Origin: a virus
Reading direction: 5' to 3' (one strand)
Length of the DNA: 28,437 nt
IMG/VR virus record: IMGVR_UViG_3300017971_000654
Location: 1-28,437 of that record
In this document: piece by piece, positions 10,176 through 16,963 of the stretch
Layout of the letters: the number at the start of each line of letters is the position of its first letter
How positions within the stretch are numbered: position 1 is the first letter of the stretch
The notes under the pieces: generated by a model
Databases searched by the model: none
Told to the model about the DNA's origin: nothing
Seen by the model: the letters and a program-made list of their open reading frames with translations, nothing else
Position numbers and translations under genes: made by a program

Positions 10176-12605
10176 TTACCTCGCAACCGGCATTCCACCG
10201 TGATAAACTACCGTTCCAGGTTGCCAATTCTTTTCACGTCCACCGCGCCGTTGTATATCTCGTTCAGCTTTTGAATTAGCCTTTGCAACCTCTCTACCAT
10301 CTATATTTATTCTAGTGCATTTCTCTTTGTTTACAGAATCGGCGGCGGCTTCAGCAGCTTCGGCGGCTTTTCCGGCAGACTCCTTTAAATGCTCATGAGA
10401 AATGCCGATTTGTTTAGCTAAATCCATCATAAACTTACCTGAATTTTTCTCGGCTTCTAAAATATATTTTTCTGGTGATAAATCTTTAGTTTCTAATTCA
10501 GCTTTATGAGTTTTAAAAATCCTAGATTCTTGTTTCATTCTTTCAGGTATATTATCTACATATCCCCTTTTTATTTCTTCATGTACTGTAACCGCAATCT
10601 TTTTCTTCGGTGGTACATAATACGCTGCTCGTAATGCGCTATCTACTTCATCCTTCCAATCTCCAATACCTAAAGTATCCATGAATTGAGCAAAACGCAA
10701 TCTAGCAAAGTTAAACTTCTTTACTAACCAGTCTATACCATCAACAATCATATTAACTATATTCATCCAAAGTTCTTTTATATAGTTACCCCATGACTGT
10801 TTTTCACGTTTAAAATAAAACAATGCTGCAACTAAAGCGCCAACGGCGGCAACAACTAAACCAACGGCGGCGGTAGCGGCTACAACACCAACAGTTAAAG
10901 ATAAAAAGAATGCTTTAACTGCCGCCGTCGCCGTTACCAACCAAGTTGTTATATTAAATAAACCTGTAACAACTAATCTGGTTATACCTTGCGCAAATGC
11001 AAATCTTATGGCGCTTCCAACTGCTATAAAAGCAGTCTTTAAAGGTGCAAGTAGAGTGAGTAAGAAACCAAAAAACCCAGAAAATACTTTCCATAAACCT
11101 ACTACAGCCATTTTTATAGGCCAAAATGCTATACCTAAAGAAACCAATGCGGCACTTATACCCGCAAGCGTAACTCCATATTCCATCATTTTTGCTTTTG
11201 GACTATCACCAAAAGCTTCACCGGATATAAGTCCTATTCTGTGTAATACCCAATGTATCTCACTCATTATTGTACTTAAATTCTTTAAACCTTTTTCTAA
11301 ACCGATCACTCTTTGTGTCGTACTCTCGCCGTACTTATCAGATACTTCTTGTAAACGCATCCATTGCGTTTCATTTTCTTTCATAGGTTCACGTAAATCT
11401 TTTAATGCATACAAAAAATGATTTAATGATTCTGTTACACTTTTGAATGCCGCTTTTCCACTTTCTAAAAATGGACCAAATATACCAATTGCTAAACTTT
11501 CCATTGAAGATTTGAACAGAATAAACGCGCCATGTAAATTGTCTAACTTAATTTCCGCCGCTTCTGTTGACGCACCCATACCGTCAACTATATTTTTTTG
11601 CAATTCTTTAGTTGCTACAGAACCAGTTTTAGCTAAAGCAATATACGCCCTTGATGCTCTTTGCGGAAATAAAACGGATTCAATTCTTGCACGTTCAGCA
11701 AAGTCAGGTATCTTATCTAAAGCTTCATGGAAATCAGATACAACATCTACCAACGGTCTAAACCCACTGTTATCAGTTTTAACTAAACTAACCCCAAGTT
11801 GTTCCATTGCTTTTTTAGCTTCGCTAGTAGGATTAACCAACCTATCAACTATATTCCTTAACAACATTCCACCAGTTGTGCTCTTATGCATTTTATCAGC
11901 TAGTTTACCTAATACAGCAACAGTTTCTTCTAAACTCATCCCCCATTTTATAGCCCCAGACGCGCCATAAGCAATCGCTTCTGCCATTTCCGGCAAAGTA
12001 GTTGCCGATTTCTGTGATGCTACCGTCAACGCATCGGCAACCCTTGTCGCTTCTTTTACTTCTAAACCCATTGCCCTTGTAACACCGCCAATAAACTGCG
12101 CAGCTTCACCTAGCTCAATACCGGCAACGGCGGCGGCATCCAACGTCGGGCCTACAGCAGATAAAATCTCGCTTGTATTAAACCCTAATATACCTAATTT
12201 TTCCATCGCAACTGCCGATTGCGTCGCACTGAACACAGATTCAATACCTAACTGTTTAGTTTTATCAATCAAGATTTTCATTTCTTCATCAGAAATGTCA
12301 CGCATAACAGCTTTAATACTTGATAGTTGTTTCTCGTATTGTATAGCCTGAAAAGCACCAGCACCCATCGCGGCGGCAGCAGGCAAACCAGCCATTGAAA
12401 ATTGACGCAACCCATCGGAAATACTTTTTGCACTAGCTTTGATACGATTAAACGCTTTAGATAAAGAACTCTCTATTTTAGTTCCTGTTTGTGATGCTGA
12501 TGTTTGTAATCCCTGGAACGAACGTTTACCACGATTAACACCAGCTTCTAACTTCGCCGGATCTAACATAAGAATCGCGCCTAATCCCATTTGTTCAAGT
12601 GCCAT
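10176..12605 (-). CDS. Tail tape measure protein (809 aa, TP901-like core)
   Basis: Sets tail length, fills the tube lumen and is ejected at infection. Residues 80-360 resemble the TP901 tape-measure core (EKQLSSIKAVMRDISDEEM, SATQSAVAMEKLGILGF, DAAAVAGIELGEAAQFIG, VADALTVASQKSATTLPEMA, IAYGASGAIKWGMSLEETVA). Residues 475-600 hold several long hydrophobic stretches, presumably for membrane passage. Residues 740-758 are an Ala-rich helix. The C-terminus ends with NIDGREVAKA followed by a basic stretch, a pattern seen at other tape-measure C-termini. No peptidase or muramidase domain is visible. With the rule of about 1.5 A of tail per residue, 809 aa suggests a tail of very roughly 120 nm; contributions of the ends are unknown. 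It starts 7 bases after the frameshift extension stop, with SD AGGTTTGTT-ATG. Confidence 0.95.
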   Translation of the reverse strand: MALEQMGLGAILMLDPAKLEAGVNRGKRSFQGLQTSASQTGTKIESSLSKAFNRIKASAKSISDGLRQFSMAGLPAAAAMGAGAFQAIQYEKQLSSIKAVMRDISDEEMKILIDKTKQLGIESVFSATQSAVAMEKLGILGFNTSEILSAVGPTLDAAAVAGIELGEAAQFIGGVTRAMGLEVKEATRVADALTVASQKSATTLPEMAEAIAYGASGAIKWGMSLEETVAVLGKLADKMHKSTTGGMLLRNIVDRLVNPTSEAKKAMEQLGVSLVKTDNSGFRPLVDVVSDFHEALDKIPDFAERARIESVLFPQRASRAYIALAKTGSVATKELQKNIVDGMGASTEAAEIKLDNLHGAFILFKSSMESLAIGIFGPFLESGKAAFKSVTESLNHFLYALKDLREPMKENETQWMRLQEVSDKYGESTTQRVIGLEKGLKNLSTIMSEIHWVLHRIGLISGEAFGDSPKAKMMEYGVTLAGISAALVSLGIAFWPIKMAVVGLWKVFSGFFGFLLTLLAPLKTAFIAVGSAIRFAFAQGITRLVVTGLFNITTWLVTATAAVKAFFLSLTVGVVAATAAVGLVVAAVGALVAALFYFKREKQSWGNYIKELWMNIVNMIVDGIDWLVKKFNFARLRFAQFMDTLGIGDWKDEVDSALRAAYYVPPKKKIAVTVHEEIKRGYVDNIPERMKQESRIFKTHKAELETKDLSPEKYILEAEKNSGKFMMDLAKQIGISHEHLKESAGKAAEAAEAAADSVNKEKCTRINIDGREVAKANSKAERDIQRRGGREKNWQPGTVVYHGGMPVAR

Positions 12606-12612
12606 AACAAAC

Positions 12613-12798
12613 CTATTTTGTTTTATTTTTTTTAGCCTTATCTTTTAAATGTTTGATTAATCTTTCTAAATACTGTTCTAAATGTACATACGGCATTTCC
12701 ATTGCTTCACTATAACTAACTGCACCTTTAGAAAAATATGTTATATTAAATATTTGATCACAAACCTCCTGTTCTGAGATTATCGGGAAGTAATCGCA
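12613..12798 (-). CDS. -1 frame extension of the tail assembly chaperone (61 codons, made by frameshift)
   Basis: In the -1 frame relative to the chaperone gene, an open stretch runs from the slippery site at 12798 to a TAG at 12613-12615, just before the tape measure start. If ribosomes slip on T TTT TTT, the product is the first 267 residues of the chaperone plus 61 more, 328 aa in total. The extension starts CDYFPIISEQEVC and continues through a charged helical part (HLEQYLERLIKHLKDKAKK) with a very basic end. It has no start codon near the SD-like AGGAGG at 12765-12770; its first ATG is at 12702 without a good SD. Expression therefore most likely depends on frameshifting, like lambda G/GT and the paired chaperones of many tailed phages. 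It fills the 174-base gap before the tape measure gene. Confidence 0.8.
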   Translation of the reverse strand, partial: CDYFPIISEQEVCDQIFNITYFSKGAVSYSEAMEMPYVHLEQYLERLIKHLKDKAKKNKTK

Positions 12799-12804
12799 AA
12801 AAAA
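12765..12804 (-). promoter_or_regulatory. Programmed -1 ribosomal frameshift signal (U UUU UUU heptamer plus possible RNA structure)
   Basis: On the minus strand the codons AAT TTT TTT GCG (chaperone residues N265-F266-F267-A268) contain an in-frame X-XXY-YYZ heptamer, T TTT TTT, at 12804-12798. Downstream, ACTTCC (12791-12786) can pair with GGAGGT (12769-12764, one G-U pair) after a 6-base spacer. Alternatively, GATTA (12795-12791) pairs with TAATC (12782-12778), and its loop could pair with GGAGG to give an H-type pseudoknot. The zero frame ends 15 bases after the heptamer at TAA (12782-12780). The heptamer is certain; the structure is hand-drawn. Confidence 0.75.
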
Positions 12805-13598
12805 TTGTCATATGTCCAATCTATGGCAATCTTCCATTCATAACCACACATAGGACTGTTACACACACAATCTATAGACATATCAGGACCAATTGAATTA
12901 TTGCCAGTTAAATAAAGTATTTCTTCAAAATCTCTTTTACCTATTTCATCTAAATCACCATCAACTAAATCCATAGGTTGTCCGTTAACTTCAAAAATAG
13001 AACCAATAACTATCATCGATTCTATTTTTGATTCATCTATAGGTTTAGACCTTTCAATAGAAGACCATCTTACAGGTTGAAAACTCAATGATTCAACCGT
13101 CATATCACGCAATGGAAACGGATCTTTCAAATCATATTTCCATTGCGCATCAACTAGAGTTTCTGCCGTTCTTACTGGTAATGTATTCAAATCACCACAA
13201 AAACTAAACTTATTATTACATCTCGGACATTCAATGTCTGTATAAATATCTTCTCCCATAGCATCACGACGTAAAGCCATATATGCAAACATAACATCAC
13301 CATGGTACATTTTATATATCTCAAGAATACGTTCTGAACTGTTCATTGATTCAAAATTATGTGGTCCTATTCTAGTGCACATTTCACTTAAAACAATTGC
13401 GGCATAACGAAACATAGACATCGGACCTTTGCCTTTTTGTTTCTGTTTCTTTCTTAGCTCTTCATTGCGTTTCAAATTCCAACGCCGAAAAGCTATTTCT
13501 CTGGAATATCCCCCACTTTGATCTATAATACCTAGCGGTAAATTGTCCCCCTGTTCTTCTAACGTTTTTATTATTATATTCGTTTTGTTTTCTGACAC
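12780..13598 (-). CDS. Tail/baseplate assembly chaperone with zinc motif, T4 gp26-like (272 aa, zero-frame product)
   Basis: Lies between tail tube and tape measure, the slot of tail assembly chaperones. Two cysteine clusters, C124-P-R-C127 with C134, and C244-x-C246-x4-C251, look like a split zinc-binding site. This agrees with what I recall of the T4 baseplate hub assembly chaperone (gp26-type) family, whose members have CxxC motifs in the middle and near the C-terminus followed by a conserved FF. Here FF is F266-F267, encoded by the slippery heptamer. Residues 33-58 are strongly basic (FRRWNLKRNEELRKKQKQKGK). The GTG start at 13598 is supported by SD GGAGG seven bases upstream. The zero-frame product ends AITSR; the frameshifted product has 61 extra residues. 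It should act during assembly and be absent from the virion, by analogy. Confidence 0.75.
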   Translation of the reverse strand: MSENKTNIIIKTLEEQGDNLPLGIIDQSGGYSREIAFRRWNLKRNEELRKKQKQKGKGPMSMFRYAAIVLSEMCTRIGPHNFESMNSSERILEIYKMYHGDVMFAYMALRRDAMGEDIYTDIECPRCNNKFSFCGDLNTLPVRTAETLVDAQWKYDLKDPFPLRDMTVESLSFQPVRWSSIERSKPIDESKIESMIVIGSIFEVNGQPMDLVDGDLDEIGKRDFEEILYLTGNNSIGPDMSIDCVCNSPMCGYEWKIAIDWTYDNFFAITSR

Positions 13599-13653: not shown

Positions 13654-14094
13654 TTATATAGGCATAATATCATCGGCTTGGAATGTATACGTAATGATAG
13701 ACATTTCGCCCTCATTCTCCATATCCGCGCCAGCAACATTGCGCCCAGAAACAAAAAGATTAGTAAAGCTAAACGGTCTTGCAGTACCATCATTACGATA
13801 ATAAACCAACGTGCCGGCTTTACGGTATCCAGCTTGAACAGGTGATTGCCCTGACTTATACCATGCTTCTAATGCCGCTACCTCAACATCATGATGCATA
13901 GGAACAGCACCGGTAAATTCAACCGGTGTTGTTTGCCCGCCACTTCTTTTAGTTCTATCCGGCATTGTTACTACTTCTAAACTCTCTTCAATGTCGTCTA
14001 TTTTCGTCAAAGTAAGCACCGGAAGCCCAGTAACAACCAATTCGAAACTGTTGTTCGGAATATGATTTTCGTTTATTTTACCTTGTAAACCCAT
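13654..14094 (-). CDS. Tail tube protein, T4 gp19-like (146 aa)
   Basis: The tube protein polymerises into the inner channel. The sequence has the length and order of the gp19/Hcp-like tube fold: SFELVVTGLPVLTLTKID near the N-terminus, a loop with a Gly/Thr-rich PDRTKRSGGQTTPVEFTG, the MHHDVEVAALEAWYKSG helix that is characteristic of tube proteins, then RKAGTLVYYRNDGTARPFSF and a C-terminal strand ending in ITYTFQADDI. It stands after the sheath gene and before the chaperone/tape measure genes, as in most contractile phages. Its own strong SD (AGGAGAAAACAATA-ATG) and the leader gap suggest high expression. Family assignment is by pattern and position together. Confidence 0.88.
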   Translation of the reverse strand: MGLQGKINENHIPNNSFELVVTGLPVLTLTKIDDIEESLEVVTMPDRTKRSGGQTTPVEFTGAVPMHHDVEVAALEAWYKSGQSPVQAGYRKAGTLVYYRNDGTARPFSFTNLFVSGRNVAGADMENEGEMSIITYTFQADDIMPI

Positions 14095-14638: not shown

Positions 14639-16963
14639 TTAACTAGACGCTTCAAAAATACCGGCTTTGCCGATACGTATTTTAAACCTTTCAACAGTAC
14701 CAACCATCCTTAGTCTGATATCAGCATATAGATCGCCGGCTTCTTTTGTAACATCTGTATTATTTTCACCATCTACCTTTAATAGAACTGCTTCTTCAAA
14801 TGTATACGCTGTATCAAATGCACCGTTATTGTATTCTTCTCTAAAGAAACCTCGCAAAGATGCCAACGCTAACTGTTGAGTTCTTACATTGTTTAGACTG
14901 AAAATAATCCAATCAAAAGACTCTTGTAAAACATGTTCATAATAGGACATCGCTTCCCTTTGATGCTTCCAACGCCATGTTGGATCAGTAGCAGGAATGC
15001 GATCGCCCCATATAACAAAGTTACCCTGTTTCTTTATAATAACAGGTATACCACGCGGATTGAGTATTTCTTGATCAAGAATCCTGTCACCAGTTGGTAG
15101 TTTCAAAATAGACGGCAGAGTTGCTTCAACACCGGCGGCAGCTTTGTGATAACCGAAATTATCAACTGCCATTCTAGCTTCCCTACCATGTACCATTCCG
15201 GTTACAGTTACTAACTTTAAAGCACCTTCATTGTTACCTTCCGGATCTGCCATATAAGCATAACTAGGAAAGATCCAAGCTGAATAAGTACTACGTCCGA
15301 TAGTTGTATTTACATATGTATCAGCAGCATCATCAGTAGTAACGTTTGACGGTATTTCACACCTATACTGATGATTTTTAGCATCGGCGTAAGCTTTACC
15401 GGCATTCTGAACGGCAGTAGCCGTAACACCTGGAGTAGCAAACTTAACCAGACCCATATTCCTATCAGCTATTTGATTGAATGGTGAAGTGTCTACATCC
15501 CAAAGTTGACTGGTATAATCGGCATCTGCAATCTCCGATGCACCATCCCTACCGCCTTCAAGTTCGATCGGCGCAACTACCATAAAATCATCACTGGTAT
15601 CAGCAACTGCTGTCATATCTGAACCATCGGCGACAGTGATAACCTGATTAGTATTCGCTGTAATCCGAAATTTAGTTTTTGCATCGGCAGAGTTAGTCTT
15701 ATCTGGATAAAGATACCCACCTACCAACTCATCAGGTTCAAACAGAATATAGTTTAGAACAATGGTATCACTAGCAGATAACGCCGTTCCACCTGCCGTA
15801 ATCGTAAACGCCGGCACCCATTTAACTGAATCAAACGCACTTCCTAAAGTGCAAGTACCGATAGCACCTAGCACATCAGAAACCACATTTCCTTCGGTTG
15901 CACTAGTCATTGTGATCGTTATAGTCTGCGCAATGTTATCAGCAGAGAATACACTTGCATGAGTAGGATCACCACCACCTGGACTATTGATCGTATATAT
16001 ATAACCAATCGCCGTTAATGTTGTAGCTGTAACAGCACTGTTTTTACTATATCCGTTTGATGGACGTGCCGCCGGTACAATAGCGCCGTCATATGAATCA
16101 GCAGCTACAATTTCATAGTTTGCGGTATCATCGTTTATAATATTTACCCAATACTTTGAAGAAGTATCGTCCATTGAAAGATTAGCATATGTAGTCACAA
16201 GATTACCGTCTACATATACATCAATTGCAAACTCATTATCTGGATCTTCTTCACCGTCACGAATCCTAAACGATACAGCTTTGGCTTCGTTTTCTCTAGT
16301 TAGATAAACTTGCATATCTGTAGGTGTAGCACCTAGATCCGTTGACATAGTTGAATCAGCAGTAACAGTGAAATCCCATTCGCTATTCCCATCATTCCAG
16401 GCACTACTGATGATCTTATACTGTGTAGAACCTACCTCGCCAAACTGAATGTAACCACCGTTATATTCATCCGGTTTAAACGTACCTTCTACAACCGTCG
16501 GAGATTCCGTTGCACCTAAAGATAGAATGGTTTCAGTAACCTGGTTTACATTATTCAGAGTAGTAGTGAACCGTTTCCTTTTACCGCCCCATCTTCCACC
16601 ATTATGCGCCGTAATCGTACCAGCAGCTACAAGGGCAGAGGAGTTCCGAGTATAAATAGTCTTCTGTGCTGCAACTTCGTTTCCATCTGTAGCACGTACC
16701 GCTACAATTCCACCGGCACCGGCAGCGTTTTTATAATATTCATATATAGCATCAGGACATTGCCCTTCAGTTATATATTTACCAACACGCCTTTCAGCAA
16801 TTTCTTTTGAAGACAACCAAATCAATTCAGAAGTTGGACCTTTTTCCAAAAGTCCGCCATAACCTACCCAACCTTTAGCACCTGGAGTAATAGGTTTATC
16901 GCCTTCAACCTCTTGAATTTGAGTTCCGGCGCCCCTTATTGGACCATAAACTTTTGTAGCCAT
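14639..16963 (-). CDS. Tail sheath protein (774 aa)
   Basis: The contractile sheath subunit. The N-terminal part (IRGAGTQIQEVEGDKPITPGAKGWVGYGG, then GQCPDAIYEYYKNAAGAGGIVAVRA) and the C-terminal third (IPSNVTTDDAADTYVNTTIGRSTYSAWIFPSY, then ARMAVDNFGYHKAAAG, NPRGIPVIIKKQGNFVIWGDR, QESFDWIIFSLNN, ASLRGFFREEYNNGAF) match the conserved polymerising domain of phage and R-pyocin sheaths. Typical small sheaths have about 390-500 aa; here the middle (about residues 105-470) is a long beta-rich insertion expected to protrude from the tail. That insertion contains a repeated motif, FKPDEYNGGY (162-171) and FEPDELVGGYLYPD (408-421). Strong SD TAGGAGAAAATAAAGAA-ATG. The gene is followed by the 152-aa gene and the tube gene, consistent with a co-expressed tail module. 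Confidence 0.96.
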   Translation of the reverse strand: MATKVYGPIRGAGTQIQEVEGDKPITPGAKGWVGYGGLLEKGPTSELIWLSSKEIAERRVGKYITEGQCPDAIYEYYKNAAGAGGIVAVRATDGNEVAAQKTIYTRNSSALVAAGTITAHNGGRWGGKRKRFTTTLNNVNQVTETILSLGATESPTVVEGTFKPDEYNGGYIQFGEVGSTQYKIISSAWNDGNSEWDFTVTADSTMSTDLGATPTDMQVYLTRENEAKAVSFRIRDGEEDPDNEFAIDVYVDGNLVTTYANLSMDDTSSKYWVNIINDDTANYEIVAADSYDGAIVPAARPSNGYSKNSAVTATTLTAIGYIYTINSPGGGDPTHASVFSADNIAQTITITMTSATEGNVVSDVLGAIGTCTLGSAFDSVKWVPAFTITAGGTALSASDTIVLNYILFEPDELVGGYLYPDKTNSADAKTKFRITANTNQVITVADGSDMTAVADTSDDFMVVAPIELEGGRDGASEIADADYTSQLWDVDTSPFNQIADRNMGLVKFATPGVTATAVQNAGKAYADAKNHQYRCEIPSNVTTDDAADTYVNTTIGRSTYSAWIFPSYAYMADPEGNNEGALKLVTVTGMVHGREARMAVDNFGYHKAAAGVEATLPSILKLPTGDRILDQEILNPRGIPVIIKKQGNFVIWGDRIPATDPTWRWKHQREAMSYYEHVLQESFDWIIFSLNNVRTQQLALASLRGFFREEYNNGAFDTAYTFEEAVLLKVDGENNTDVTKEAGDLYADIRLRMVGTVERFKIRIGKAGIFEASS

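Follow-up and report, generated by a model that had tools for sequence, protein, structure and literature searches.

A slip signal and a conserved -1 frame extension at the end of a gp26-like tail assembly chaperone gene

In the window, a 28,437-base IMG/VR record, the gene that immediately precedes the one for the tape measure protein raises the question of whether one gene encodes two tail assembly chaperones. The original prediction, made from this DNA, had proposed a short and a long product, the latter formed by -1 frameshifting near the 3' end of the gene. We consider it very probable that the short and long chaperones are produced in this way, at a T TTT TTT heptamer. The presence of the slip signal and of the -1 frame extension as real features is confirmed.

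The chaperone gene and its neighbors

The zero-frame gene is located on the minus strand at positions 12780-13598. It starts with GTG and encodes the short tail assembly chaperone (TAC-N), a protein of 272 aa. The 3' end of the gene reads ...GAC AAT TTT TTT GCG ATT ACT TCC CGA TAA, with the stop codon at 12780-12782. The heptamer T TTT TTT (12804-12798, minus strand; zero frame AAT TTT TTT GCG) encodes an FF motif and is in the phase for tandem -1 slippage. It is separated from the TAA by 15 bases.

The -1 frame on this strand is open from 12807 to a TAG codon at 12615-12613, and contains 61 codons past the second Phe residue. This extension (TAC-C, 12613-12798, minus strand) would be joined to the short chaperone by a single -1 slip, giving a predicted long form of 267 + 61 = 328 aa. 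The position of the heptamer on the FF codons, its distance from the zero-frame stop, the 61 open codons, and the expected products of 272 and 328 aa are all as originally predicted. One detail is corrected here, as the -1 frame stop had been placed seven bases before the Shine-Dalgarno region of the tape measure gene. It is located seven bases before the start codon of that gene (ATG 12605).

The extension has a coding score of +11.0 in the -1 frame, based on the codon usage of the window's own genes. For reference, genuine gene pieces of 60 codons have scores of 15.7 +/- 6.1, and the mean scores in the two wrong forward frames are -43 and -53. The length of the frame also exceeds what chance would readily give, with p about 0.005 for 61 open codons in the local composition.

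The chaperone gene is positioned between a putative tube gene, assigned by its location, and the tape measure gene. The tape measure protein (10176-12605, minus strand, 809 aa) matches PF10145 (PhageMin_Tail, E 1.2e-37) and phrog_1533 (tape measure, E 6.8e-58). The probable tail tube protein (13654-14094, minus strand, 146 aa) is encoded directly upstream of the chaperone, between it and the sheath gene. This protein has no family match in Pfam or PHROGs, and its counterpart in the relative L002 is found in the same place and has the same length (146 aa). The tail sheath protein (14639-16963, minus strand, 774 aa; phrog_17610 tail sheath, E 3.4e-12) is that of a contractile tail.

Relatives and membership in the gp26 and gp51 families

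When phages, plasmids and IMG/VR were searched directly with the proteins of the chaperone, tape measure and tube-like genes, no close relative was recovered. A baseplate J-like protein led to L002, and a two-sequence alignment of the sheath protein then led to 14 loci. The family set consists of the window and 13 distinct relatives (L002, L004, L006-L009, and L011-L017). L010, which is the L002 contig recovered a second time, and L005, which ends before the gene, are left out of the counts. The genome collection gave one weak match, L018, which was unsuitable for use. The chaperones of the relatives are 19-39% identical to that of the window.

The heptamer is found at the FF or FL codons in all 14 loci, as T TTT TTC in 11 of them, T TTT TTA in two, and T TTT TTT in the window alone. 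In every locus (14/14, including the window), the -1 frame runs without a stop from the slip site into a homologous extension. In the 13 diverged IMG/VR relatives the extension is always in the -1 frame and is conserved as protein, with the family pattern FFRxFFPI...ELxEExFALTYxxKG...Y.D...M...R.W.L.RL. Searches by tblastn with the extensions recover those of the relatives, with E values down to 1e-12. With the amino acids fixed, the probability that all 14 loci would have a preceding codon ending in T and TTT as the first Phe codon is about 1e-10, the loci being treated as independent though they are related. The strongest single locus is L013, which has TCT TTT TTC despite a GC content of 67%, with TTT making up 8% of Phe codons and T-ending codons 14% of Ser codons. 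Homologues with a broken heptamer or a closed extension frame, which the original prediction had named as the evidence that would speak against it, number zero among these loci. The remaining doubt about the reality of the feature is removed because it is conserved in the relatives.

By family, the short form is a gp26 (T4_baseplate) protein, and its extension corresponds to the gp51 C-terminal domain. The window chaperone matches Pfam T4_baseplate (PF12322) with an E value of 3.5e-6 and 27.3 bits, above the curated cut-off of 24.5, and 10 of the 14 family members match this entry. In PHROGs, its match is phrog_150 (baseplate hub, E 2.7e-5). The family profile aligns with a T4-like gp26/gp51 profile through to the C-terminal FF (E 1.7e-9). 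An AlphaFold2 model of the chaperone has a pLDDT of 88.5, and its best viral fold matches include predicted baseplate hub proteins annotated as T4-like. The proposal of a gp26-like chaperone is thus borne out by PF12322, by the gp26 profile, and by the location of the gene directly before the tape measure gene. The family profile of the extension matches T4-like extensions, which correspond to the gp51 C-terminal domain, with an E value of 1.3e-8 and a probability of 95.6%. In addition, the extension of L002 matches phrog_634, 'baseplate hub assembly catalyst' or gp51 (E 5.7e-4). These matches come from the family profile and L002 only. An HMM scan with the window's extension alone gave no gp51 family match. 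Single T4 proteins gave no credible match to the family profiles, for which the comparison of alignment with alignment was needed.

Several other matches are taken as chance. They include Pfam matches of single extensions (BRCC36_C, RLIP76 and others), which are scattered with one member each, PDB matches by sequence and by fold, and an Rfam match (SCARNA7) far below its cut-off.

The same signal is present in T4-like phages. In cyanophage Bellamy, the 3' end of the gp26 gene reads AGT TTT TTC GCG TAG, and the annotated gp51 is in the -1 frame, which is open from before the heptamer. All 81 Bellamy-type (cyanophage) gp26 loci have T TTT TTC at the same codons together with an open -1 frame (81/81). 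The preceding codon is TCT, AGT or GGT in the 80 loci with tabulated codons, while just 62% of Ser codons elsewhere in the genes of these loci end in T. The same heptamer, again followed by an open -1 frame, is found in pf16, ZPAH1, Aeromonas 65, Yut3, K571, C48C1, S-H34, P-SSM7, Aeh1 and KVP40, and T4-like phages of Aeromonas, Vibrio, Stenotrophomonas and Pseudomonas are thereby among those with the signal.

The annotations of several of these isolates omit gp51 (Aeh1, ZPAH1) or give it as a stub of 81-105 bases (Aeromonas 65, P-SSM7, C48C1). Aeh1 (L118:1878-2087) and ZPAH1 (L106:2190-2369) have an unannotated gp51-like domain in the open -1 frame behind the T TTT TTC at the end of gp26. A survey from 2010 reported gp51 to be missing only in Aeh1 and cyanophage gp51 to have about 20% of the normal length (PMC3037559). 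Both observations arise because coding continues in the -1 frame.

Other arrangements are found at the ends of some gp26-like genes. In Streptomyces phage BRock (L019:11400-11660) and in pSt2308 (L021:3680-3937), the gene ends with ATC CTG TTT CGC GAA CTC and the stop codon, and a gp51-like domain is open from before the stop in the +1 frame, not the -1 frame. This domain is annotated as a separate gene starting from TTG in BRock and is unannotated in pSt2308, and the TTT C is a candidate site for +1 frameshifting in both. Streptococcus phage vB_SagM-GXN1 (L110:2132-2500) has an unannotated gp51-like extension (FSLTYYGNYSVTDIESMSISDF) in the +1 frame after its gp26-like gene. Three Vibrio Ackermannviridae, D506 (L109), BX-1 (L113) and 207E48.1 (L114), are without T TTT TTY, and the ATG of the extension overlaps the stop codon (TAATG), which suggests that translational coupling replaces the slip in these phages.

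T4 itself has no frameshift. Its gp51 matches phrog_150, the gp26 family, over the whole length (E 2.6e-84) and phrog_634 at the C-terminus, and T4 gp26 and gp51 align with each other (E 2e-6). T4 gp26 is without the extension, and gene 25 comes next. T4 therefore has short and long genes, 26 and 51, instead of a slip. Frameshifting is reportedly conserved in several T4-like groups, with T4 said to use genes 26 and 51.

The downstream hairpin and alternative explanations

A candidate stimulatory hairpin is located downstream of the heptamer (12764-12791, minus strand), with ACTTCC (12791-12786) pairing with GGAGGT (12769-12764) after a 6-base spacer and across a 16-base loop. As placed, this stem is modestly better than in synonymous-codon shuffles (p 0.025), and the 70-base RNA region around it folds no better than shuffles (z 0.31). 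Most relatives have stronger equivalents, with longer stems in L002 (CTTCTTCCC/GGGAAGAAG), L009 (TTCTTCCCG/CGGGAAGAA), L012 (TTCTTCCCAG/CTGGGAAGAA) and L015 (ATTTCTTCCGTGT/ACACGGAAGAAAT). Among the 14 loci that were compared, L016 has no hairpin. Over these loci the hairpin is better than in synonymous shuffles with a combined p of 8e-7, where the loci are treated as independent though they are related. In eight loci with a common register, pairing is seen in 74 of 88 cells, as compared to 40-55 when the arms are slid by 1-3 positions.

The arms of the stem overlap in part with the conserved FFP and REE codons. The coding of these residues alone is insufficient to account for the stem because the 3' arm is on different codons in L004 and L015 than in most of the loci. 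The ACTTCC/GGAGGT stem with its 6-base spacer, as originally drawn, exists and has family-wide equivalents, but it is weak in the window itself. An upstream Shine-Dalgarno stimulator is not evident in the window. Among the T4-like phages that were tested, S-H34 has the strongest hairpin (L115:2206-2245), a perfect stem of 10 bp (AATGATGCAC/GTGCATCATT) that begins 7 bases past its heptamer. The stem is weak in most other cyanophages.

An AGGAGG sequence (12763-12768, minus strand) just past the chaperone stop resembles a Shine-Dalgarno sequence and shares bases with the 3' arm of the stem. Its location is one point in favor of the first alternative, in which the extension is a separate small gene that has its own start or is reached by termination and reinitiation at the chaperone stop. 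The three Vibrio phages with the TAATG start of gp51 and no heptamer, and the many cyanophages with an ATG 5 or 14 bases past the gp26 stop, also fit this explanation. However, the GTG behind the AGGAGG in the window is in the zero frame, which is closed after six codons. ATG is found in the extension frame solely at codons 35 and 37 (counted from 0 in the 64-codon frame), and there is no GTG or TTG, in agreement with the original statement that the extension has no usable start. The first of these ATG codons is beyond half of the conserved domain. In L008 the extension frame has a single start-type codon, TTG, at position 57 of the frame, and therefore the conserved domain cannot be made by initiation of its own. 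Starting at either position, codon 35 in the window or codon 57 in L008, the conserved first half of the extension would be lost. Moreover, an early gp51 start is absent in P-SSM7, C48C1, ZPAH1 and Aeromonas 65, the conservation of the protein starts at the FF of the slip site, and reinitiation leaves the heptamer unexplained. We reject a separate gene on these grounds, leaving it a small chance of being correct.

Slippage of RNA polymerase on the T run, with the long form made from edited transcripts, has a somewhat smaller chance still. The window has the seven Ts that such a mechanism might use, but most relatives have only six, followed by C, and six Ts are short for efficient polymerase slippage. 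Tandem slippage of tRNAs agrees better with the phase, which is always X XXY YYZ over two codons, and with the hairpin downstream.

Even less weight is given to an error of sequencing or assembly in the T run, with the true gene being one continuous frame. Homopolymers are error-prone and the window is a metagenomic contig, but the arrangement is equally out of frame in many isolate genomes and in the 13 relatives, each assembled independently, mostly with T6C, and at the level of the family an error is ruled out by these relatives. An open frame arising by chance without function, although 61 open codons do occur with p about 0.005 in the local composition, is equally improbable in view of the coding score and the protein-level conservation over deep divergence, and is refuted by the conserved extensions in the relatives.

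The preferred reading is translational frameshifting on the heptamer. In this mechanism, most ribosomes would read 12780-13598 to the TAA and produce the 272-aa short form, which is similar to T4 gp26. In a minority of cases, both tRNA-Phe would slip back by one base on T TTT TTT at the two Phe codons, and translation would continue in the -1 frame to 12613, so that the product of 328 aa carries an additional domain that is helical and gp51-like. If lambda G/GT is taken as the model, the tape measure protein that is encoded next may be coated by many copies of the short form and few of the long one. The short part would bind this protein, and tail tube subunits would be recruited through the additional domain.

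Comparison with known systems

As cited in two later papers (PMC10885494, PMC12846349), Vladimirov, Gautam and Davidson (2022, Virology 566:9-15) described gp26 and gp51 as tail assembly chaperones. A passage of the PRFect paper (PMC10885494), citing the same study, states that some T4-like phages have a short gene and a longer fused gene, and a passage of the Adele paper (PMC12846349) treats poly-T as a known -1 signal in T4-like short chaperone genes. A review from 2016 had described the lambda-type frameshift as conserved in long-tailed phages 'except T4' (PMC5009743). The T4-like observations made here are largely a rediscovery of the 2022 work. The original prediction had regarded the combination of the heptamer with a gp26-like chaperone as a hidden feature of this DNA. 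The long form is indeed missed by gene callers in the window's clade, but the combination is not unique to the window and was published in 2022. T4-like phages that fall outside the T4 group proper usually have such a slip site in a gp26-like chaperone gene.

The window shares with the T4-like phages a homologous gp26-type short chaperone, the gp51 C-terminus as the added domain, the poly-T slip site at FF codons, the -1 frame, and a long form that consists of the short form and the extension. In contrast, the tail of the window's phage is otherwise not T4-like as far as tested, a PhageMin_Tail tape measure gene is located directly next to the chaperone gene, and the loci of the window's family have in addition a TTCTTCCC/GGGAAGAA type of hairpin.

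The lambda G/GT system, and also P2 E/E+E' and Mu, have the same gene position between the tube and tape measure genes, a -1 slip near the 3' end, an extension that ends just before the tape measure gene, and short and long products. The comparison with lambda G/GT in the original prediction holds for the short and long pair, for the gene directly before the tape measure gene, and for the conservation of the extension in the -1 frame. The differences from lambda are in the heptamer, which is G GGA AAG in lambda G/GT and T TTT TTT in the window, and in sequence, as the family scans found no homology to lambda G or T.

Pakpunavirus / Vandenendeviridae and Andersonviridae also have a poly-T slip site that ends the short chaperone gene and an open -1 frame missed by annotation (PMC12846349). 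Their motif is GTTTTT, as compared to T TTT TTY here, and the likeness to the window concerns the signal and the missed frame.

T4 gp26 and gp51 are hub assembly chaperones whose mode of action was long unclear. The location of a gp26/gp51-type chaperone gene immediately ahead of a standard tape measure gene speaks for the published interpretation, in which they are the counterparts of lambda G/GT. What is new here is an unstudied clade, recovered in this analysis from uncultivated contigs only, with the PhageMin_Tail tape measure gene directly downstream and the family hairpin. We see an even chance that this clade represents gp26/gp51-type -1 frameshift chaperones in contractile phages that are not T4-like, placed before a standard tape measure gene and equipped with a conserved TTCTTCCC/GGGAAGAA hairpin of their own. 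If so, the T4 pair and the lambda-type arrangement would be joined in one clade, and genes 26 and 51 would be tied to G/GT by gene order and sequence.
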